Assembly (NCBI GenBank): GCA_905250025.1
Contig: CAJNOJ010000144.1
Span: forward strand, 62,001 to 126,000
Reading direction: 5' to 3'
Source of the DNA: Adineta ricciae
Taxonomy: Eukaryota; Rotifera; Eurotatoria; Adinetida; Adinetidae
DNA length: 64,000 bases
Shown: one piece after another, positions 1 to 40,089 of the stretch
Position numbering within the stretch: position 1 is the stretch's first letter
Layout of the letters: every line of letters begins with the position of its first letter
Notes under the pieces: model-generated
Database searches by the model: none
What the model was told of the DNA's origin: nothing
What the model saw: only the letters and a program-made list of their open reading frames with translations
Position numbers and translations under genes: made by a program

Positions 1-57
1 TGGTTACGTCTTCATTTCTGATTGTTTATTAAACAAAAACAAATAACAATGAATCTA

Positions 58-1854
58 TTATTGAATTAAATACTTTTGTACACGATTATTATTACAATCG
101 ACAACATAAAGATGTTCATATCGATCAAAAGATAAACTACGTGGTCCATCTAACATATCATTTTGCCATCCTTCACCTTTTCCACCCACCACAAGTTTTC
201 CTTTAGTTGCTCCTTGTTTCCAACGCATGACTCGATCATTTTGATAATCTGACACATAAACCGTATTTAATGAATCAACAAATATTTCATTTGGATATCG
301 TAAAAGTCTCACAAGACTTCCTGCTATACCATTTCCTGCGACTTGTCTCTTTTTTCCATTGCATTATGCGATGATTCTCAGTGTCCGAAATAAAAACATT
401 TTGCTGTCGATCCACAAAAATAAAAGTTGGACTATTTAGTTCATGTAATCCTGCACCTGGATTTCCATTGCCAGCCACAACAATTTCATTTGTTCCATCA
501 ATATCATATCTTTTGACTTGATGATTCTTATTATCAGAAACATAAAGATATCTTTGATGATCGATGGCTAATCCTCCACAGCGAATATTTTCTATGAGAA
601 TTTCTCCAGTTTTGCTTGAACTATTTCTAAACCAGCGAAGAACTCTTCGATTGGATTGATCACAAATGATGAGAAAATTGGATATTCTATCGACTAATAC
701 ATCAACTGGCTTAGATAATTGATCTAATGCAGCTCCATTCCCTCGATCACCAAATATGACCTGTCCTTCATCATCTCCTTGTTTCCATTAAACAATTCGA
801 TGATTGTCACGATCAGCAATGATAAAATTTTGATCATCATCAATGAAAATACCATGTGGATGATAAACTCGATAAGTCGCATTATCTTTCTGTCGACCTC
901 CGATGATAGTTGTACCATTCTGTTGCCAATACGCTTTGCCTGGTATATGGGGAATCACTACAAATTAAAGAGAATGTATCATAATTACAATATCATATCA
1001 ACGTACTTTTATCGTTAATGAAAAACGACTTTTTACTTGAGAGTGGAATTGGGGTTGATGTCGATGTTGTAGTTTCTTCTAGTTTAGACAAAATACTTTT
1101 TCCATTGATTTGTTTCATTAATTGTCTATTTTCCGTTTGATTTACTTTTGTCTGTTCTAGCATGGCGATAATAGTCGTTAAATTAATCTTCAAACGATGA
1201 ATTTCATACTGATTCGAAAGCACAAAATAGATCAAAACAACAAATATTGCAAAAGACAAAAGAGCAAATAATAATAAACATCCCTTATATAACATTTTTC
1301 TCTTCAATTTAGCACGTGAAATTTCCTTGTTACGATGAATAACAGGTATTTGACTATTTGAATTTGGCGAATGAATATGATCTAAATTCGTATTAAAATC
1401 GAACGAAATGATCATTTTAAGTACCTTACTCGATGAAAAAGTGATTCCATCTACTTCCTCTTGATCTGCAGTCAATGCTTCGAACAGAGGTGGCATGATA
1501 ACTGATAAACTTTGTGCAGATTGATTCAACCGATTTCGATTTAAATGTTCTGAAGTTACAAAAGAAGTATTTTGATGTCAAATAAACGAAAATCAATTGA
1601 CCTTTCAATAGTTTTGCAGCATCAAAACAACGGATTTGATCGAAAGCTTCGATGAGATAAGTAAAATCTTCTTCATTAATTTTATCTTGATCAAATAGTG
1701 AATCCATTAAATTGAGAGTTCCGCCAAGTGTTGGATCATCTCGAATTCGTCGTGGAACATCGTTACCAAGATAGAAATGAAGTCGTTTCCGATCATCATT
1801 CGAAAGACGATCTTGTAAATTCAAAATTATCGCACGCAAACGAACATTATCCAT
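58..1854 (-). pseudogene. DED - transmembrane - NHL propeller receptor-like gene, broken
   Basis: Four exons can be read on the minus strand: 1854-1602, 1549-1430, 1381-1037 and 957-58, with GT-AG introns of 52, 48 and 79 bp, all phase 1. Exon 1 encodes about 84 residues resembling a death-effector domain (helical pattern with LSNDDRKRLHFYLG and DSLFDQDKI). Exon 3 carries a basic stretch (KLKRKM), one hydrophobic span (CLLLFALLSFAIFVVLIYFV) and a Ser/Thr-rich stalk. Exon 4 encodes about five NHL blades, recognised by repeated DxxNHRIVxW, NRRVLRW and NDRVMRW. Topology should be type II: DED inside, propeller outside. Two lesions are visible: an in-frame TAA at 788-790 where sister blades have Gln (CAA to TAA), and a frameshift between about 342 and 358. 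The exon plan matches the intact gene at 36534-37898. DED assignment is by pattern only; the NHL call is strong. Confidence 0.72.
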
Positions 1855-3672: not shown

Positions 3673-4741
3673 TTACTCAATTTTCTTTTGATACACTCGT
3701 ATCCAATCAGTCACCATTAACTGTGGCCAAACAGTAGTGTTATCAGGTGGTCCAGGCCATTCTCCACCAATTCCGATGTTAATTATCATATAAAATGGCC
3801 ATTTTCCACTAAACGCCCAGACGGGATTGATAGATTCAGGCAGATTGGTCGTATTAATTCGCGAATAAATAAATTCATTAACACCAATTGTAATTTGTTC
3901 TGATGTCCATTCAGTCCAATACACCAGACTATGATTGTGAAGCATTGAATCATCAGGTGTTTTCCATTGTTGATGAATTTGTTTGTTAAAAACAGGTTTC
4001 ATCATATTAGATTGATTATTCCAATGAACGGTTCCATGTGCATATTGATCAGTAAGATTTACACTTACATTATTTCCTCCTACCATTTCTAAAATATCAT
4101 TTTCACCACATGTTGGCCATCCTAATTTATATTTATCTGCATTGCCCAATAACCATCATGCTGGCCAGATTCCTTTACCATAGGGTAATTGAATTTATGC
4201 AGCCCATATTCCAAAAGTGAATTCCTGTAGGTTTTTTACTTGCATANCCTACCATTTCTAAAATATCATTTTCACCGCATGTTGGCCATTTTAATTTATA
4301 TTTATCTGCATTGCCCAATAACCACCATGCTGGCCAAATTCCTTTACCATAGGGTAATTGAATTTTTGCAGCCCATATTCCAAAAGTGAATTCCTGTAGG
4401 TTTTTACTTGCATACATACCTGATGTTAATCCTTCTTTTAATGCGACAAGAGTGAATTTACCGTCTTGCACATATGCATTAAAGATTGAATTAGTGAAAT
4501 TTTGTAAACCTCCATCAATGTGCATGCCAACAATTGGAGCCCAGTTTTTGGGATTCGGTGCATAAGCAGGTTTCCCATTGATAAAAGCTTTCACTGGACC
4601 AACATTTTCGAAATCATCTTGAAAAACGAGTTCGTAATCTTGACCAGGATTGAAAGTAAAATTGGATGGATCCCAACCAACGACAAAATAGACATTGTTA
4701 AAAATAACAATGAATAGAAAGAAAACAATGAAATGTAACAT
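3673..4741 (-). CDS. Secreted glycoside hydrolase family 16 (laminarinase-like), crossed by an assembly join
   Basis: The N-terminal half (4741 to about 4250) starts with a signal peptide (LHFIVFFLFIVIFNNVYFVV) and continues with GH16 features: YELVFQDDFEN, FGIWAAKIQLPYGKGIWPAWWLLG and the catalytic GENDILEMV (E-x-D-x-x-E). The C-terminal half (4149-3673) repeats the catalytic motif and continues through HGTVHW, HNHSLVYWTEW, INIGIGGEWPGPP and VTDWIRVYQK to a stop. Known members hydrolyse beta-1,3-glucans. The two halves meet at a single N at 4247. About 164 bases on its left repeat those on its right with about ten differences, and the left copy carries two in-frame stops (TGA in place of a Trp, TAA in place of a Lys) plus an extra T in a T-run. 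Without the repeat the protein would be about 305 residues, normal for GH16. No intron is seen. Such genes in rotifers are often viewed as horizontally acquired; that is inference here. Confidence 0.8.
4083..4413. repeat. Direct duplication of GH16 catalytic segment around a single N
   Basis: Bases 4083-4246 and about 4250-4413 are near-identical with roughly ten differences, separated by N at 4247. The divergence suggests two alleles or paralogues placed end to end during scaffolding, not a recent tandem duplication. Confidence 0.75.
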
Positions 4742-4841
4742 GAGAATGATTGAAGAGAAATTACTTTTCTACTGTTTTTATATGGATCAAATGGGAGTAA
4801 AGAAGAAGAAGAAGCCATTACAAATAATAAAAGAAGCAATT

Positions 4842-17900: not shown

Positions 17901-20900
17901 CTGGTTCATTTAATCAAAGTGTACAGGCAGTAGTCGTCAAAATCGTAATCTACGGTACTATAATCAGCTTTTTATTTACACAAGTTGCAAAAGCTCAGCA
18001 CAGACCAGTATTTTTCGGCTCCGATTACCCTTTGATCATTGTTTATAAAATATGTTTTCTTTTATTAAAAATGGTCGTTTGTCTTCAAAGATATAACGCA
18101 AATTTTTTTGCAGAAAAGCTGATCTCAGATTCGAGTTCCTCGGTTTCGATTACTTCTTAGTTAAACTTTATACCATACCCACAGTCAGTACACAATAATT
18201 GAAGAAGGTAACGAAAGAACTTACGAACAGATATCAGCTCAATGCATTCCCTTCGTTTGAGTGAAAGGAAGAAAGAAAGTTCAACTAACGTATATTCTCC
18301 GTAGTTATTTAGCTTTGTTTTTAAAAAGAAAATCAATACATAAATTTGATCAGTTATAAGTCTATTATTATTTGTCCTGTATTAATTGTAATGTGATATT
18401 AACCGGTAGTTAACTTCGAACAACTAAGAGAGTGATAAGAACAGTCGTTATCTATTTCAAAAATATATCTGTGAATGTATGCGTACGTAATTTTCTTTCA
18501 ACTCTTTTTCTTCAATAGAAGTTAACTTATTATCTTATTTGGAAGTAAACTTAGAAAGTACAGTCTAAATATTTTTTTTCATCATTCTCCTTTTCCCATA
18601 CTCTCAACTTGTTGTCTGAATAAAATTTCAGCGTTGTAGTCTTCATATTTCATTTTCCATAGCAATGGAGAAAAATTCACTTGAATCACTGATAATAATG
18701 GCCCTTCTCAATGACACCATGGTGTTATACACTCTTTTTCAGCGTTGGTTTCAATATTATAAAGCTTTGTTTTTAGTGTACACTAATTTTTAATAGCTTC
18801 ATAAGTCACAATCTACTAGATTGTATAACCGCAGAGAATCAAATGAAGACTGAATCGTCAACAATCGAACAAGCACTGCATTCTTCCGTTTAAAAAATGT
18901 CGGCGCATGTTTTCTTCTGAGATTATATCACTCACAAATGGATTTCGAGTCTGCCAAGACTTTTAAGCGATCCTACATAGCTCCTCGAAATGTAATGTTT
19001 CCCCTCGAATTGATGAACAAGGAGTCGACTAATTTTGAGAAGCTATATCCTTGATTCCCTGGAAATCACGCATCTTTTAAGCTAACTTCATCAACCATCA
19101 CTGTTATAATGAATTCAGAACTTTAGTCCAAATCCGTTCATTGCACAATCCAGTCCTACATTGTGAAAGACTTTTCTCTATGAATCCCAGGTAAGAAGTT
19201 AAACGCACTCCTCATTGCAGAATATATTTGACTCTAACTCCTTTCTTGAAATGAATCAACATCCTTAAAAAAGAACTCCTGTCACTCCACATGATTTCAA
19301 AATGAGGGCAACTAGGTCCCACGGCATTTTGTTCTTTATCAACATACGTACCAAATCATGACACTGAAAGCTCGAGATTAGCAAGTACACCTAGAAATTA
19401 TACCAAAAACCATTACATTTCTAAGTTCTTCCGCAAATTTCACATTAACATCGATTCCCATTATATTTGTGCACTTTTCAACTTTTCACAGCATACACCA
19501 GCACCTACTTCGTTGCGCTCACTTTTCCAGTCGGCAATGGCACACAATCAGTTACGATCGTTGACGTTAACAATGACACGAAACCAGATATAATTACGGC
19601 AAATTATGGTGAGAAGACCGTTAGTGTTCTTCTCAATGCAGGTAATGGCATATTTTCTAATCAAACTACCTATGCAACTGCCGCTGCCCCAGCTGCAGTT
19701 GCCGTCGCTGATATTAATAACGATGGAAAACCTGATATAGTTACGGCGAATCCTGTTGGAAGCACAGCTACTGTTCTTCTCAATGTAGGTAATGGCATAT
19801 TTTCTTCACAAGCTGCCTATGCAACTGGCTCGTATCCATACTCAGTTGCTGTCGTTGATGTTAACAACGATGCAAAACCTGATATAATTACCGCAAATTA
19901 TAATGGAAACACAGCTAGTGTTCTTCTCAATACAGGTACCGGTACATTTTCTCCTCAAACTTCGTACGCAACTGGTCAGTATCCATCCTCAGTTGCTGTT
20001 GCTGACGTCAACAACGACGCAAAACCTGATATAGTTACAGCAAATAGTGGTCCCAGTACAGTTAGTGTTCTTCTCAATACAGGTACCGGTACATTTTCTC
20101 CTCAAACTTCTTATGCAACTGACACTAACCCCGTATCAGTTGCGATCGCCNATACAGGTACCGGTACATTTTCTCCTCAAACTTCGTACGCAACTGGTCA
20201 GTATCCATCCTCAGTTGCTGTTGCTGACGTCAACAACGACGCAAAACCTGATATAGTTACAGCAAATAGTGGTCCCAGTACAGTTAGTGTTCTTCTCAAT
20301 ACAGGTACCGGTACATTTTCTCCTCAAACTTCTTATGCAACTGACACTAACCCCGTATCAGTTGCGATCGCCGATATTAACAATGATGCAAAACCTGATA
20401 TAATTACCGCAAATTATTATGGAAGCACAGTTAGTGTTCTTCTCAATACAGGTACCGGTGCATTTTCTCCTCAAAATATTTATGCAAGTGGTACAGCTCC
20501 ATACTCGATTGCCGTCGTCGATGTCAACAATGACACGAAACCTGATATAATTACGGCAAATCGTGATGAAAATACGGTTTGGGTTCTTCTCAATACAGGC
20601 AATGGTACATTTCCTTCTCAAAATATTTATTTAACTGGCTCATATCCATACTCAGTTGCTGTCCTTGATGTTAACAACGATGCAGAACCCGATATAATTA
20701 CAGCAAATAATATTGACAATACAGTTAGTGTTCTTCTCAATATAGATACTGGCAAGTTTTCTTCTCAAAATATTTATGTAATTGGCTCATATCCATACTC
20801 AGTTGCTGTCGTTGATGTTAACAACGATGGCAAACCTGACATAATTGGAACGAATACTCGTGACAATACAGTTAGTGTTCTTCTTAATACAGGTGCCGGT

Positions 20901-21776
20901 ACATTTTCTAATCAAACTTCCTATACAACTGGCTGGTATCCATACTCAGTCGCTGTTGCTGATGTTAACAACGACACGAAACCAGATATAATTACGGCAA
21001 ATTATGGTGAACAGACCCTTAGTGTTCTTCTCAATGCAGGTAATGGCATATTTCCTAATCAAACTTCCTATACAACTGGCTGGTCTTCATACTCAATCGC
21101 TGTTGCTGATGTCAACAACGATGCAAAACCTGATATAATTACCGCAAATTATAATGCAAACACAGTTAGTGTTCTTCTCAATACAGGTACCGGTACATTT
21201 TCTAATCAAACATCCTATGCAACTGGCGTTCGTCCATACTCAGTTGTTGTCGTTGATGTTAACAATGATGCGGAACCTGATATAATCACGACAAATAGTG
21301 GTGCCGGTACAGTTAGTGTTCTTGTCAATGCAGGTAATGGCACATTTTCTAATCAAACTATTTATGTAACTGAAAACAATCCATATGGACTTGCGGTTGT
21401 TGATGTCAATAATGATGCAAAACCAGATATTGTTACGGGTAATAGTGGTGCAAATACAGTTAATATTCTTCTCAATACGGGTACCGGCACATTTTCTTCT
21501 GCTATCTCCTATGCAAGTGGTTTATCTCCATACTCAGTTGCTGTCGTTGATGTCAACAATGATGCAAAACCAGATATCGTTGTCGGTAATACTGGTACAA
21601 AAACAGTTAGTATTCTTCTCAATACGGGTAACGGCACATTTTCTTCTCAAACTACCTATGCAACTGGTTACAAACCAAGGTCAGTTGCGATCGCCGATGT
21701 TAACAATGACGGGAAACCTGATATAATAACGGCAAATTCTGGTGCTAACACTGTTGGAGTTTTGTTTCATTGCTAA
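14923..21776 (+). CDS. Secreted PAN-like - Ser/Thr linker - FG-GAP/VCBS repeat protein
   Basis: Three exons fit one frame: 14923-15256, 15643-15894 and 19492-21776, all joined in phase 1 with good GT-AG signals. Exon 1 starts with a signal peptide (WTRIFALFSAVIFDLVF) and a small Cys-patterned PAN/apple-like domain (QFQCATTTC, CQSSCLRQSQC, ECQLF). Exon 2 is an almost pure Ser/Thr linker. Exon 3 encodes 15 FG-GAP/VCBS-type repeats of about 48 residues, each with a calcium-loop motif like DVNNDxKPDIITAN followed by VSVLLNxGxGTF; one of the 15 lies in the duplicated block around the N at 20151, so about 14 are real. Such repeats form beta-propeller or beta-strand surfaces in adhesion proteins. 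The 3.6-kb second intron is far longer than others here and holds a MITE, so the exons could instead belong to two genes. The stop is shared with the duplicate copy at 25053. Confidence 0.65.
15643..15894 (+). repeat. Ser/Thr-coding trinucleotide-rich exon
   Basis: Imperfect arrays of (ACA), (TCA) and (ACG TCA) triplets encode the Ser/Thr linker. Long minus-strand frames here, full of Val, Asp, Met or Leu, are products of the repeat and not genes. Confidence 0.8.
16495..16918. mobile_element. MITE-like element with about 68-bp terminal inverted repeats
   Basis: The left end (16495-16562) and the reverse complement of the right end (16851-16918) both begin ATGTCGTA, then read CCAATCCAAG, TTGGCCT, TAGGATT and ATCTTGGATCAAA, about 80% identical by eye. 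Total length is 424 bp with no coding capacity. It lies inside the long second intron of the PAN/VCBS gene. I could not define a target-site duplication. Confidence 0.75.
16919..19491. other. Rest of long intron or intergenic stretch
   Basis: About 2.6 kb of AT-rich DNA between the MITE and the FG-GAP exon. No exon, repeat or RNA gene was recognised. The stretch ends in a usable 3' splice site (AG at 19490-19491). Confidence 0.4.
19930..20372 (+). repeat. 221-bp exact direct duplication around a single N
   Basis: Bases 19930-20150 and 20152-20372 appear identical and flank the N at 20151. The added 222 bases are 74 codons, so the frame stays open. An exact copy beside an N is best read as an unmerged contig overlap. 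Confidence 0.8.
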
Positions 21777-23190: not shown

Positions 23191-23949
23191 CTCGGTTGCC
23201 AAAAATGTTTTTCCAGGGGGTACAGCCCTAACAACTAGTGATAGACACAATGAATTTTATACTAAAAGAAAGCCCGTCAAAAACGGGATCTAGGGGTATA
23301 TTTTACTGTTCTGTAAAAGATGGGCAAGCTACAGAACTGTAGAGCTTCAGAAAATTTGAAGAATTTACTATTACTGAGACGTTTTTTCCAAGATAAATTC
23401 TGAGTGAAAACTGTTAAAGAATCACAAATACAACGAACTAATGTTTATTTTTTTATAAACCTGGTACAATAATCAAAGAAAATAATCAATAATCTGTATG
23501 CCGACCGTTAGCTTTTCTCATAGCTTGTAATCGAGATGGATACGAGCATAACAGATTTTGAAAAAGCTCGGTATTTGCTTCCATATTTTCTATGACATTG
23601 CATATGTGGTTTTTCAATGTTTCTTGACGATGACGATCATCTCTGGCCTCAGATAACATTCTTGTCTCGACTTCGTCCTTCAGTATTGATCCGATGCGCT
23701 CAGCTGCATTGAGATCAGGTGAATTTCCTGGCCACATATTATTACCCCAAAAATTGATATTGTTGTCCTGGATCAACTGCTGAGTCATATTTGCTTTCAT
23801 GCATGGGGCTTTATCGTGAACAAACGTCACTTCATCCACATCAATGACATGTTTTCTTCATTTTTGAGAAAAGGAAAGACGTGCTGAACCAAAATTGTAT
23901 CACGAAAGTATTCACCTGTCCAGGATTCTCCTTATTATCTTTGACTACC
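23191..23949 (-). mobile_element. Tc1/mariner-type transposon, truncated copy with transposase C-terminus
   Basis: The end begins CTCGGTTGCCAAAAATG after a TA, matching the full copy at 28382. The minus frame 23839-23486 encodes 117 residues with the last two catalytic regions of a DDE transposase: FVHDKAPC, then NMWPGNSPDLNAAERIG. I count 37 residues between the second Asp and the Glu. The copy is cut at the N at 23950, where FG-GAP sequence starts. Confidence 0.8.
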
Positions 23950-23950
23950 N

Positions 23951-25053
23951 ACAACGATGCACACCCCGATATAATTACAGCAAATAATATTGACAATACA
24001 GTTAGTGTTCTTCTCAATATAGATACTGGCAAGTTTTCTTCTCAAAATATTTATGTAATTGGCTCAAATCCATACTCAGTTACTGTCGTTGATGTGAACA
24101 ACGATGACAAACCTGACATAATTGCAACGAATAGTCGTGACAATACAGTTAGTGTTCTTCTTAATACAGGCACCGGTAAATTTTCTAATCAAATTTCCTA
24201 TACAACTGGCTGGAATCCATACTCAGTCGCTGTTGCTGATGTTAACAACGACACGAAACCAGATATAATTACGGCAAATTATGGTGAGCAGACCCTTAGT
24301 GTTCTTCTCAATGCAGGTAATGGCATATTTTCTAATCAAACTTCCTATACAACTGGCTGGTCTTCATACTCAATCGCTGTTGCTGATGTCAACAACGATG
24401 CAAAACCTGATATAATTACCGCAAATTATGATGCAAACACAGTTAGTGTTCTTCTCAATACAGGTACCGGTACATTTTCTAATCAAACATCCTATGCAAC
24501 TGGCGTTCGTCCATACGCAGTTGCTGTCGTTGATATCAACAACGATGCAAAACCTGATATAATCACGACAAACAGTGGTGGCGGTACAGTTAGTGTTCTT
24601 GTCAATGCAGGTAATGGCACATTTTCTAATCAAACTAGCTATGTAACTGAAAGCAATGCATACGGACTTGCGGTTGTTGATGTCAATAATGATGCAAAAC
24701 CTGATATAATCACGGCAAATAGTGGTGAAAATGCAGTTAGAGTTCTTCTCAATACGGGTACCGGTACATTTTCTTCTGCTATCTTCTATGCAAGTGGTTT
24801 ATCTCCATACGCAGTTGCTGTCGTTGATGTCAACAATGATGCAAAACCAGATATCGTTACCGGTAATACTGGTACAAAAACAGTTAGTATTCTTCTCAAT
24901 ACGGGCAACGGCACATTTTCTTCTCAAACTACGTATGCAACTGGTTACAGGCCAAGGTCAGTTGCGATCGCCGATGTTAACAATGACGGGAAACCTGATA
25001 TAATAACGGCAAATTCAGGTGCTAACACTGTTGGAGTTTTGTTTCATTGCTAA
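23951..25053 (+). pseudogene. FG-GAP/VCBS repeat gene fragment (duplicate copy)
   Basis: Eight FG-GAP/VCBS repeats of about 48 residues in one open frame, closely matching the last eight repeats of 19492-21776, with the same C-terminus (NSGANTVGVLFHC). The PAN and Ser/Thr exons are absent: the 5' side is the N at 23950 followed by transposon sequence. Changes between copies include synonymous and replacement sites, and the calcium-loop Asp residues are kept. It may be the end of a real paralogue whose front was lost in scaffolding. Confidence 0.65.
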
Positions 25054-36533: not shown

Positions 36534-37898
36534 ATGGGTGAGCAACTGAACTTTCGAGCGTTGTTGCTGAAACTTCAAGATGCTTTATCGAGGAGTGATC
36601 GAGAACGCTTTCATTTTATTCTTGGTGATATTATTCCTGCTGATGTACGTGATGATTTAAGTATGGGAAGTACATTGAAGCTTCTGGAAACATTGATCAA
36701 GCAAGGAAACATTGATCAACAAGATGTCGGTTTTCTAATCAAGGTATTTAGCAAAATTCATTGTCAGAGTATTGTAAACATGTTGAAACGTACGGCAAAT
36801 GTCAGTTATAAATAAATAAAAATCAAATTTATATTCTTTCCTAGAACATGAACGTTTTCAACAGCTGGAAGATGAAGAAGATTCAATCGTCACAACTAAG
36901 TGTAGTTCAAATCAAATGATCGAGAGTGAGAATATCAACTCAACATGTTCGTAGCACGAACAAATGATCATCGAAGCAAACTAACTAGTTTTTCTCTTCT
37001 TTTAGATGTTTCAAAAGAGATCACTCCAAATCTTTACTATCATTCTGAGTCTACTCCTCTACTTTCGAATGGGTTACACCCAATAGTAACATCGCAAAGT
37101 TTGGTTGAGTCAACTTTAGTCGAACTGAATGAATCGAATCAAAATAAAGAATCTTGTTCTAATCGATGCTATCAAATATTAAAGAAAAAAACATCGAAAT
37201 GGTCAGTTCTATTATTTATCTTCAACATAATTTTCCTCTCCTTTGCCATTGTTCTATTTCCTCTTCGCTGGCAATTACCTATTGCACATGTACGATGTCT
37301 AGATGGTAAATGATACTTTCTGTCCATTAGAGCAAGGATATTCAATCTATACACTTCTTTTGTGATTTTATTTCTAGATGTCTATGCTATCAAAGAAGGT
37401 GACATAAATGGAGGAAATGGTGGTGAATCATTTGATGATGCCAAAGGTTATGGACTTACCTATGGTGATCGATGCACGGCGGTTGAAGTTCACTGGTCAT
37501 CAAACTTAATTAACTCAGTTCGATTTACATATAGGATGTCGTCGACACAAGACAAGACTGTACATTATGGATCACATGGTGAAGATGCAGGATTCCATGA
37601 AGAATTTCAACTTCTTCCAGACGAAGAGATTAATAAAGTCACGGTCAATGCCCGTAACATAACGATGGTGACAAATACCTCCTATTTTCTCATTACTGGT
37701 ATTCGATTTCATACAACTCAAGGACGCATGAGTCAACATTATGGTGCAAGTAATGATCCAAGCTTGACAGAATCATATGATGGCTATACACTTTTCTATG
37801 TCAAAGGAAGATCAGGAAGATTTCTCGACGGTCTGAGATTTGTCTGGTCTAAAACATGTGCACGAGTTAGTTCCAAAGAATGCATGCCTTCCTCTTAA
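36534..37898 (+). CDS. DED - transmembrane - jacalin lectin receptor-like protein
   Basis: Four exons give an open frame of 385 residues: 36534-36789, 36845-36925, 37006-37305 and 37378-37898, with introns of 55, 80 and 72 bp, all phase 1. Exon 1 is a death-effector-like domain (LSRSDRERFHFILG, LLETLIKQGNIDQQDVGFLI). Exon 2 is a short acidic linker. Exon 3 ends with basic residues (LKKKTSKW), one membrane span (SVLLFIFNIIFLSFAIVLF) and a short stalk. Exon 4 encodes a jacalin-type lectin: NGGNGGESFDDA, VRFTYRM, GFHEEFQLLPDEEINKV, ITGIRFHTTQGR and FLDGLRFVWS. Topology should be type II, with DED in the cytosol and lectin outside. DEDs recruit caspase-8/FADD-type partners in other animals; jacalin domains bind sugars. 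No lesion seen. The exon plan equals the broken gene at 58-1854. Confidence 0.75.
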
Positions 37899-38055
37899 TA
37901 GATTTCAATGTATTTTTCACCATTACAAATAAACACGAGCATAAAGTGTATGTACAATTCGATATGTTCTTTTTGGAAAATAGAAATGTCATGAAAATAA
38001 CCGTACTTTTTTCCAAAATCATTCATGTAGCAGGTTGTAAGGGTGTGATTCGTTA

Positions 38056-39110
38056 CAAGGGGGAAACGGCGGACTTTTAGACTTCATAATACTTGCTAGT
38101 ACTTGAAATGTACTTTGAGCTATTTCATTGATACTTTATCGATACTTATAAAATACTTGAAGTCGCTTTAGTTTCTCGTATTATACAAATTTAAATCGAT
38201 ATATCGAGTTTTTAGCAATCGGGTTCGTCACATATTTTGTAAACTACAACATAACGATAAAATTTTCTTTGAACTGAGAAAAGATTATGTAAAGACAAGT
38301 TTAGTGTAGTTTTTGAACATATTTATCGAAACAATGGAATAAAATAAAACACGAATGGTTCTCTACGTCTCTACCAGAAAAATAAAAAACAGAGAATGTT
38401 ATCTGCGGCTTTGTTTTGCCGAAGCGCAGTGTTGTGAATCAAATAATGAAGATAATGATAGAGAAGATGAGCTTTATGATCAGTTATTAGCTTTTGTAGA
38501 CAATGATGACAATAAAGAAACAGAGATATTAAACTCAACAAGATCAAATTTCGATGGAAATAAACTTGTTGATTGTATTAATCCTGTTATGAAACACTCG
38601 TATGTTAGGGCCAAGCTGAAGGATAAAACGAAATACCTTCACAAACAATCAGCATGTTGGCTGTTACTCAACATAAAAACAGTTATCTAGTGATCGTCTA
38701 TCTCGAGTAATGCAACAAACGAGCAGTATTAACTGATAAAATTCGTGATTTTATTTTTCATTATTGATATTTCTCCTATAACTTATAGATAAGAACATTG
38801 ACTTTTTTTAATTTCTTTATTGGAATTCAATTTCATTTGATCAATCGATAACTTTTCACGACTATCATTCCACTTTGTGGCACTTGTATGTACTTCGAAA
38901 GACTTTGATGATACTTTCAGCGACTTTGGAGATATTTAAAGTACTTAGTTTTATTTTTGACGATACTTTGTAGGTACTTGATCGTACTTAAGAGCTACTT
39001 TATCATACTTCGAAGACACTTGAAGCTACTTTCGTCGTACTTTGAGCTACTTGAAGTTACTTTTGGATTTTGATCTACTTTCATACTTGAAGTCCGCCGT
39101 TTCCCCTTTG
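38056..39110. mobile_element. 1.06-kb element with 20-bp terminal inverted repeats and TACTT-rich ends
   Basis: The ends read CAAGGGGGAAACGGCGGACT and, on the other strand, CAAAGGGGAAACGGCGGACT (one mismatch). Next to each end lie many copies of TACTT / AAGTA words (38085-38165 and 38880-39090), like transposase-binding arrays in some DNA transposons. A plus frame (38355-38690) encodes 111 residues ending KQSACWLLLNI; a shifted frame continues LSSDRLSRVMQQ, which suggests a decayed protein I cannot name. The right end abuts the truncated cullin copy. Confidence 0.7.
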
Positions 39111-40089
39111 TCGCTAATACAACCAATGATAATCGATCAATTCTCTGGTACAACTTGAAAAAATTTTGTAGATATTCTCCAATAGTTCATATTGATTTGT
39201 GTCCAGCATTTCGTAAATGTGCTTATTTTTCAAAGATATTTTATTGATTGATTCAAATATAAATTAACATGTTCCATTTCGTCGTTAAATTAGATTTGAA
39301 CTTTTTCAATTAATAATCGTGTGCTTTCAGATCGATAGAATTTAGTCGAACGCTGCAAATACGTTGATTGAGATTCTATGCGATCAATGTAATCTTTGTT
39401 GAGATTAATTTTTGTTAACAATTCAACAATGTCTTTTATAATTGCTCTTGAGAAGTTATTTCCAGCCATGCATTTATATAACATTCTTGTATACACAACG
39501 TATGGATTGTTCCAAGCTCTTCTATGGCGACTTAATGTGTCAATCTGTGAAGCTAAAAGGTTTAGAAATGAATCACATACTTTTGTCATGCTCCTCTAAT
39601 GATGATTTGTGTGTAACGAAAAATTCTGATAAAGATGATTTAGTAAACCTTGGTTTAACCTGTACAAAACGAAAGGACAATATATGAAAATATCAGTTGT
39701 GACATACCTCTTTAACAAGGTATTCATGAATTAATTCACATATGTTTTCATATAATCTTTCTCTATATTCACGAAGTACTATTTTGTAAACATCGCTAAA
39801 ACAGGAGCTGAAATTTTCTAGTAAAATTTCTACGCCATGTTTCACTTAGGTAGACCACGTCTGTTCAATGGGATGAATCATCCATGATTCCCTAAAAACA
39901 AAATAAATATCATATGTTTATTTACAAAAATAAAATGTAGGCAGAATCTCATATACTTAGAATTCATTGTAGCAAGACTGAGTTTCTCGGAATACGCTAG
40001 AACGTATCAAATCGAGTGAGATTACTTACAAAAAGTCGATCTATTATTCCCGTGCTTCTTACTTCACGAACGTTCGACGTTGAACTCAT
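39111..40089 (-). pseudogene. Cullin-3-like gene, N-terminal remnant
   Basis: The first exon starts at 40089 (MSSTSNVR). The next exon has IVLREYRERLYENICELIHEYLVKE, like the cullin-3 N-terminal repeat (compare [25 protein letters not shown]). The last exon (39589-39290) has FRSESTRLLIE-like and SFLNLLASQIDTL segments. An in-frame TAA follows WST in exon 2 (about 39848). A one-base frame change near 39588 could instead hide a 28-base intron, which I think too short. The 3' part is missing where the TIR element ends at 39110. Upstream sequence to about 40553 is shared with the copy at 48904-50749. Confidence 0.7.

Follow-up and report, generated by a model that had tools for sequence, protein, structure and literature searches.

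Within the 64,000-nucleotide stretch of Adineta ricciae DNA analysed here (contig CAJNOJ010000144.1, positions 62,001 to 126,000; hereafter, the window), we identified a four-exon gene (Table 1) that, when the window DNA is spliced, encodes a stop-free protein of 385 amino acids; its three introns are all GT..AG introns in phase 1. From N- to C-terminus, the protein consists of a death effector domain (DED), a linker, a single membrane span (TM), and a jacalin lectin. A splice-site scan that was given only the start with a DED motif, a TM motif, and a jacalin motif, and that is independent of the first exon model, produced a best model with the same four exons. This anchored scan covered 10 loci including the window and gave models for eight (C2b gave none); seven of the eight form alignment A1, from which C100a was omitted as a near-copy of C216a. 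Extra 3′ exons suggested for the window gene by a cruder, unassisted scan were judged false. The NCBI protein P0001 (392 aa) represents the same gene and differs solely in having SENINSTY in place of one N, which results from a later exon 2 donor, also in phase 1. An intact four-exon frame, as claimed in a preliminary description made from the letters of this DNA, was thus confirmed. Since exon 3 is symmetric, its skipping would preserve the frame. A segment of about 1 kb immediately 3′ of the gene (38048–39118) is bounded by inverted repeats of 29 bases (86% complementary) and is possibly a small transposable element. Elsewhere on the forward strand, two frames with FG-GAP/VCBS-like repeats (19449–21776 and 23848–25053, by eye) represent an apparent duplication. 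A sibling gene at the left end of the window corresponds to NCBI protein P0060, which maps to it with five phase-1 introns and no junction mismatch.

Table 1. Coding features of the DED-jacalin gene and its sibling, in window positions.
Feature	Position	Strand	Basis and remarks
Sibling gene, DED-TM-NHL propeller, cut off by the left window boundary	1..1845	-	Locus L061; DED exon ~1579-1845; NCBI P0060
Complete coding region of 385 aa in four exons	36534..37898	+	Splicing, anchored scan, NCBI protein P0001
Exon 1, death effector domain	36534..36789	+	Pfam match residues 7-88, extends into exon 2
Exon 2, cytosolic linker (predicted)	36845..36925	+	Alternative in-frame donor in NCBI model (end 36946); low confidence in structure model
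Exon 3, linker and membrane span	37006..37305	+	300 nt, symmetric 1-1
Membrane span, residues 179-197	37203..37259	+	Hydropathy 2.75; helix 184-208 of P0001 in model; basic KKKTSK just before
Exon 4, jacalin-type lectin ectodomain (predicted) and stop	37378..37898	+	Pfam, structure model
Jacalin domain, residues 224-365	37410..37835	+	GG loop GGNGG 224-228; GxxxD loop GRFLD 359-363
AATAAA, candidate polyadenylation signal	37928..37933	+	30 bases beyond stop

The preliminary description had proposed a DED-like N-terminal domain, to be abandoned if exon 1 failed to model as a six-helix death fold. The Pfam DED profile (PF01335) matched the window protein with 39.4 bits (curated cut-off, 35.9) and the exon with 41.9 bits, and the predicted structure of exon 1 has six helices (pLDDT 89.4). 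In a structural comparison, the first 22 entries retrieved with this model all carry a DED, as do the first 23 retrieved with Foldseek, where E-values were weak (best, 0.16); the modelled exon 1 is thus a six-helix DED, nearer to DEDs than to PYD, CARD, or DD folds. In canonical DEDs of the FADD/caspase-8 type, an RxDL motif in helix 6 forms part of a charge triad. The window DED, which is 15% identical to the DEDs of FADD, caspase-8/cFLIP, and PEA-15, lacks this motif and presents C77-x-S79 in helix 6, while 34 aligned relatives present CxDA (C in 33 and D in 31 of the 34); moreover, FADD, caspase-8/cFLIP, and PEA-15 are soluble proteins, whereas the window DED is tethered to a membrane. None of 61 DED exons listed in the A. 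ricciae genome lies within 8 kb of any of 81 caspase-fold (C14) or 23 death-domain (DD) exons, a count from which divergent exons could be missing, and at the exon level this genome yielded no FADD- or caspase-8-like partner; a FADD/caspase-8 route is therefore unsupported at that level.

The membrane span is the one strong hydrophobic stretch of the window protein (the best score elsewhere is 1.05), in agreement with the single span described previously. In P0001, this span is flanked by five K/R and no acidic residue on the N side and by two K/R and one acidic residue on the C side; among 47 related proteins with a span, the N (DED) side is the more positive in 37, equal in three, and less positive in seven. 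With one internal span and no earlier hydrophobic signal, the window protein is predicted to be a type II signal-anchor protein, a call made by sequence rules (hydropathy and flank charge). The charge bias, together with the glycosidase-type and Cys-rich heads found C-terminally in sibling proteins (see below), supports the type II orientation put forward in the preliminary description. Span-less versions are annotated next to proteins of this type in Rotaria sordida (P0009 beside P0003) and A. steineri (P0066 beside P0067), and these, known here from annotation, are possibly soluble isoforms of DED-jacalin proteins.

The C-terminal jacalin-type lectin was also borne out, by a Pfam Jacalin (PF01419) match of 54.7 bits (cut-off, 22) and by a structure model that has the beta-prism fold of jacalin lectins and is ZG16-like. 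The GG loop and GxxxD are the sugar-binding loops of jacalin-related lectins; the window protein retains both (Table 1), while GxxxD positions vary among the paralogs in alignment A1. Sugar binding by the window domain is putative. Two candidate N-glycosylation sites lie in the ectodomain. ZG16 and the plant mannose-binding jacalin-related lectins are secreted or soluble, whereas the lectin described here is the head of a membrane protein.

The same arrangement recurs in the A. ricciae genome, in which 46 Pfam DED matches were identified and the window protein matches 84 stretches. A DED exon is located 782–1303 bases upstream, on the same strand, of 13 of the 26 listed jacalin exons (10/18 Pfam jacalin matches and 3/8 further jacalin exons), with about 0.0006 expected per exon. 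The 61 pooled DED exons comprise 13 followed by a jacalin head (one, on C755, assigned by position only), eight by an NHL head, two by GH18, three by TPR, and two by a Cys-rich head (EGF-like by eye), in addition to eight with no head recognised within the sequence examined, five without a receptor span, two second partial exons, and 18 that were not read. DED and head are separated by a hydrophobic span (score ≥1.9) at each of the 11 jacalin paralog loci that were read, both GH18, all three TPR, and both Cys-rich loci, and seven of the eight NHL loci (C294 being the exception); a clear span is also present at six of the eight DED loci without a recognised head. One open frame runs across DED and span in C822, and across span and jacalin domain in C36, C100, and C216, although the NCBI model of C100a (P0004) removes part of this frame as an intron. 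C238, initially taken from equal open-frame lengths to be a single-exon DED-TM-jacalin gene, was shown not to be one and was dropped.

The five DED arrangements without a receptor span are found on C210 (three), C173, and C128. On C210 (L039, 18500–28499), DED exons, including one tandem pair, are followed by frames that by eye resemble a RIG-I-type helicase; these DED-helicase genes are probably DED-type RLRs, a class described in Lingula (in the accessible text of PMC8998645). On C173 and C128 (L003/L040 and L004/L041), DED exons lie directly 5′ of frames that resemble MFS transporters by eye.

Related proteins were also found in other bdelloids. A profile search yielded 26 proteins, among them combinations of DED and Jacalin from A. 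ricciae and A. vaga as well as from Rotaria sordida and two further Rotaria. Fusions of a DED to a membrane span, which the preliminary description had suggested looking for in rotifer proteins, occur in Adineta and Rotaria, DED-jacalin proteins among them. In ten of these relatives, the Pfam DED match fell below the curated cut-off in nine, at E-values of 2.9e-5 or better. A search with an A. steineri DED yielded 47 proteins, 44 of which are from named Adineta or Rotaria; their heads are NHL (28), GH16 (six, two by name and alignment only), jacalin (four, three of them just below the Pfam cut-off), DM9 (two), TPR (one), and a Cys-rich head that is EGF-like by eye without a Pfam match (one), and five proteins have no head or only a weak match. 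A. ricciae P0022 adds the arrangement DED-TM-GH18-CBM5/12.

The possibility that the window gene represents a separate DED gene and a separate jacalin gene, joined by gene prediction, was rejected and has a negligible probability, given the recurrence of the arrangement at half of the listed jacalin exons, the open frames that cross both joins in paralogs, the conservation of the phase-1 junctions, and the independent annotation of such proteins in several bdelloid species.

The half that comprises DED, linker, and span is joined to jacalin, NHL, DM9, TPR, Cys-rich, GH18, and GH16 heads. For example, A. steineri P0016 (NHL) and P0029 (GH16) are 79% identical over their first 250 residues, from the DED through the stalk, and present no significant similarity beyond. 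On a tree of DEDs, the jacalin label requires seven changes, at least five of which are forced by well-supported branches; this tree is based on 87 columns and 46 hand-chosen rows (33 from annotated proteins and 13 translated from exons of the A. ricciae genome, with near-copies and rows without a recognised head omitted), 17 of its 43 inner branches are unsupported, and the window row is a long branch (0.67). The three junctions between DED, linker, span, and head are in phase 1 in those jacalin, GH18, and NHL members that were mapped to DNA, and this symmetric arrangement permits exon exchange. The earlier reading of the window gene as one joined DED-TM-jacalin receptor stands as to the DED, the span, the lectin, and the frame; it had missed a large family with exchangeable ectodomains.

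Some of the exchanged heads are glycosidase folds with altered active sites. The GH18 head of P0022 has DGIDLNWR where solved chitinases have DGIDLDWE, a change seen in the DNA of both loci, across an intron, and GAIYLMA replaces the GEIDIxE of solved GH16 enzymes in each of the six A. steineri GH16 heads. The altered positions include catalytic residues, and both kinds of head look catalytically dead and sensor-like. Two adjoining GH16-like frames in the window (3673–4768, reverse strand) retain, by eye, an ENDILE motif, which sets them apart from the family's dead GH16 heads. DM9 and jacalin are lectin folds. Insect GNBP/beta-GRP and chitinase-like lectins serve recognition with glycosidase folds that lack catalytic residues, a pattern matched by the sibling GH16 and GH18 heads, but no DED is attached to the insect proteins.

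In four recent duplicate pairs, the DED is strongly constrained and the heads change much faster. The DED exons of these pairs differ by 28 synonymous and one nonsynonymous change, as compared to 52 and 79 in heads or head parts (pooled Fisher test, p = 7.6e-9). A membrane exon is included in one of the four head sets, and the sets for GH18 and TPR cover partial heads (104 and 251 codons, respectively); two DED comparisons for which no head was counted (C98/C94, 8:1; C98 pair, 0:1) and one TM exon, which is not ectodomain (7:7), were excluded from the test. Omega ranges from 0 to 0.05 in the DEDs and from 0.17 to 1.46 in the heads, the highest value representing one jacalin pair only and not a test against 1. 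The residues that differ in the jacalin pair (nine in strands, nine in loops, and two helical) are not concentrated in loops, and selection on the binding face is therefore not claimed. These figures cover other members of the family, the window gene having no close copy.

The strong constraint on the DED exons of these pairs speaks against the membrane DED being a scaffold or inhibitor (PEA-15- or FLIP-like), with the divergent window copy as a decoy. Such a function would be consistent with the loss of both the R and the D of RxDL in the window DED, with its long end branch, and with no DED-caspase having been found at the exon level in the A. ricciae genome; we regard it as unlikely. A role of these proteins in adhesion, feeding, or self-recognition, unrelated to defence, is quite improbable in our view: lectins also serve in adhesion and recognition, but a death-fold domain, dead chitinase and beta-glucanase heads, and fast-changing heads on a frozen DED form the pattern expected of immune receptors.

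Jacalin and NHL heads are also found next to caspase-like domains. One locus (L062, C314:2000–4600) contains an uninterrupted frame of 630 aa with a caspase-like (C14) and a jacalin part, its N-terminal part being ADP-ribosyltransferase-like by eye. NHL exons are located less than 3 kb downstream of caspase-like exons, on the same strand, in at least 16 pairs at about 13 places (contigs C409, C252, C73, C453, C561, C364, C329, C99, C263, and C114); as the 23 NHL positions used were picked by eye among 150 listed of 2777 candidates, the number of pairs is a minimum rather than a sample. These exon pairs likely represent a family of caspase-NHL proteins. The three caspase-type loci examined showed no clear span, suggesting that NHL and jacalin heads may also act inside cells; the C314 frame suggests in particular that bdelloids use jacalin intracellularly too. 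This frame would be in line with placing the window protein, with the same topology, in an internal membrane (ER, endosome, or phagosome), where it would sample the glycans of ingested or damaged compartments and its DED would recruit repair or degradation machinery rather than signal death or defence. The glycosidase-type and Cys-rich heads suit the cell surface equally well, however, and favour neither place; we give the internal alternative little weight.

Several known systems share parts of this architecture. Vertebrate type II C-type-lectin receptors of the Dectin-1 kind have a cytosolic signalling N-terminus, one span, and a C-terminal lectin. The window protein shares this layout, but combines jacalin with a DED where the Dectin-1 kind combines a C-type lectin with an ITAM-like tail; a C-type lectin domain (PF00059) is not among its Pfam matches up to E 1. 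Death receptors of the TNF-receptor type signal with FADD and caspase-8. They too carry a death-fold domain on a membrane receptor, but the window protein has the opposite topology and the DED within the receptor itself, and neither TNFR Cys-rich repeats nor a death domain are among its Pfam matches up to E 1. Of the systems found, the closest precedent is an expansion of Cys-rich ectodomain-TM-DED-TRADD-N proteins in the oyster Crassostrea virginica (Kaur et al., eLife 2021, PMC8195603). As far as the accessible text of that report describes it, the oyster family resembles the rotifer family in being a lineage-specific lophotrochozoan expansion of single-pass proteins whose DED is cytosolic, but has a constant N-terminal ectodomain and a variable cytosolic C-terminus (PMC8195603). 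The rotifer family has a constant N-terminal DED and a variable C-terminal ectodomain. In the window protein, the DED precedes the span, unlike the oyster order of Cys-rich ectodomain, span, and DED, and TRADD-N is not among its Pfam matches up to E 1, although Pfam may lack the NCOA6-type TRADD-N. Secretory lectins of rotifers were surveyed in 2022 on condition that candidates have no membrane regions; the accessible text of that survey lists a single jacalin protein, from Didymodactylos carnosus (PMC8878817). We found no description of DED-TM-lectin proteins of rotifers in open-licence PubMed Central. Membrane receptors with death-fold signalling are already known; for a DED receptor family of type II topology whose heads are exchangeable and partly lectin-like, we found no published account.

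Taken together, these proteins are best read as type II single-pass pattern-recognition receptors of bdelloids with interchangeable heads, a reading to which we assign a probability of about 0.6. The N-terminal DED would lie in the cytosol, a signal-anchor helix would cross the membrane, and the jacalin lectin would face either the exterior of the cell or a phagosome-like lumen. The DED-linker-span half would stay near constant while the ectodomain is exchanged, be it jacalin, NHL propeller, DM9, TPR, a Cys-rich EGF-like head, dead GH18 plus CBM5/12, or dead GH16. Binding of microbial or fungal glycans to the ectodomains would cluster the receptors, and clustered DEDs may then nucleate a cytosolic assembly that leads to a defence or death response. 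A wider proposal, which we hold at roughly even odds, is that bdelloids have a receptor class of their own in which a frozen DED half takes up interchangeable heads through phase-1 exon exchange, several of these heads being lectins or dead glycosidases for fungal or bacterial glycans; this class would signal without FADD or caspase-8 and would have NHL and jacalin heads in common with caspase-like proteins. If so, cytosolic executioners and membrane receptors would draw on a common currency of sensor heads.

Bdelloids, an ancient asexual group of animals, are subject to attack by specialised fungi, and little is known of their means of recognising microbes. The family described here supplies named genes in a culturable species, A. 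ricciae. Measurements exist for this species of its response to a fungal pathogen and of the ensuing mortality (in the accessible text of PMC11258130). RNA-seq of A. ricciae after exposure to Rotiferophthora has been published. If the proposed reading holds, a constant signalling half with swappable, faster-changing heads would be a candidate pattern-recognition system of bdelloids, in which death-effector signalling would be wired directly to glycan recognition.
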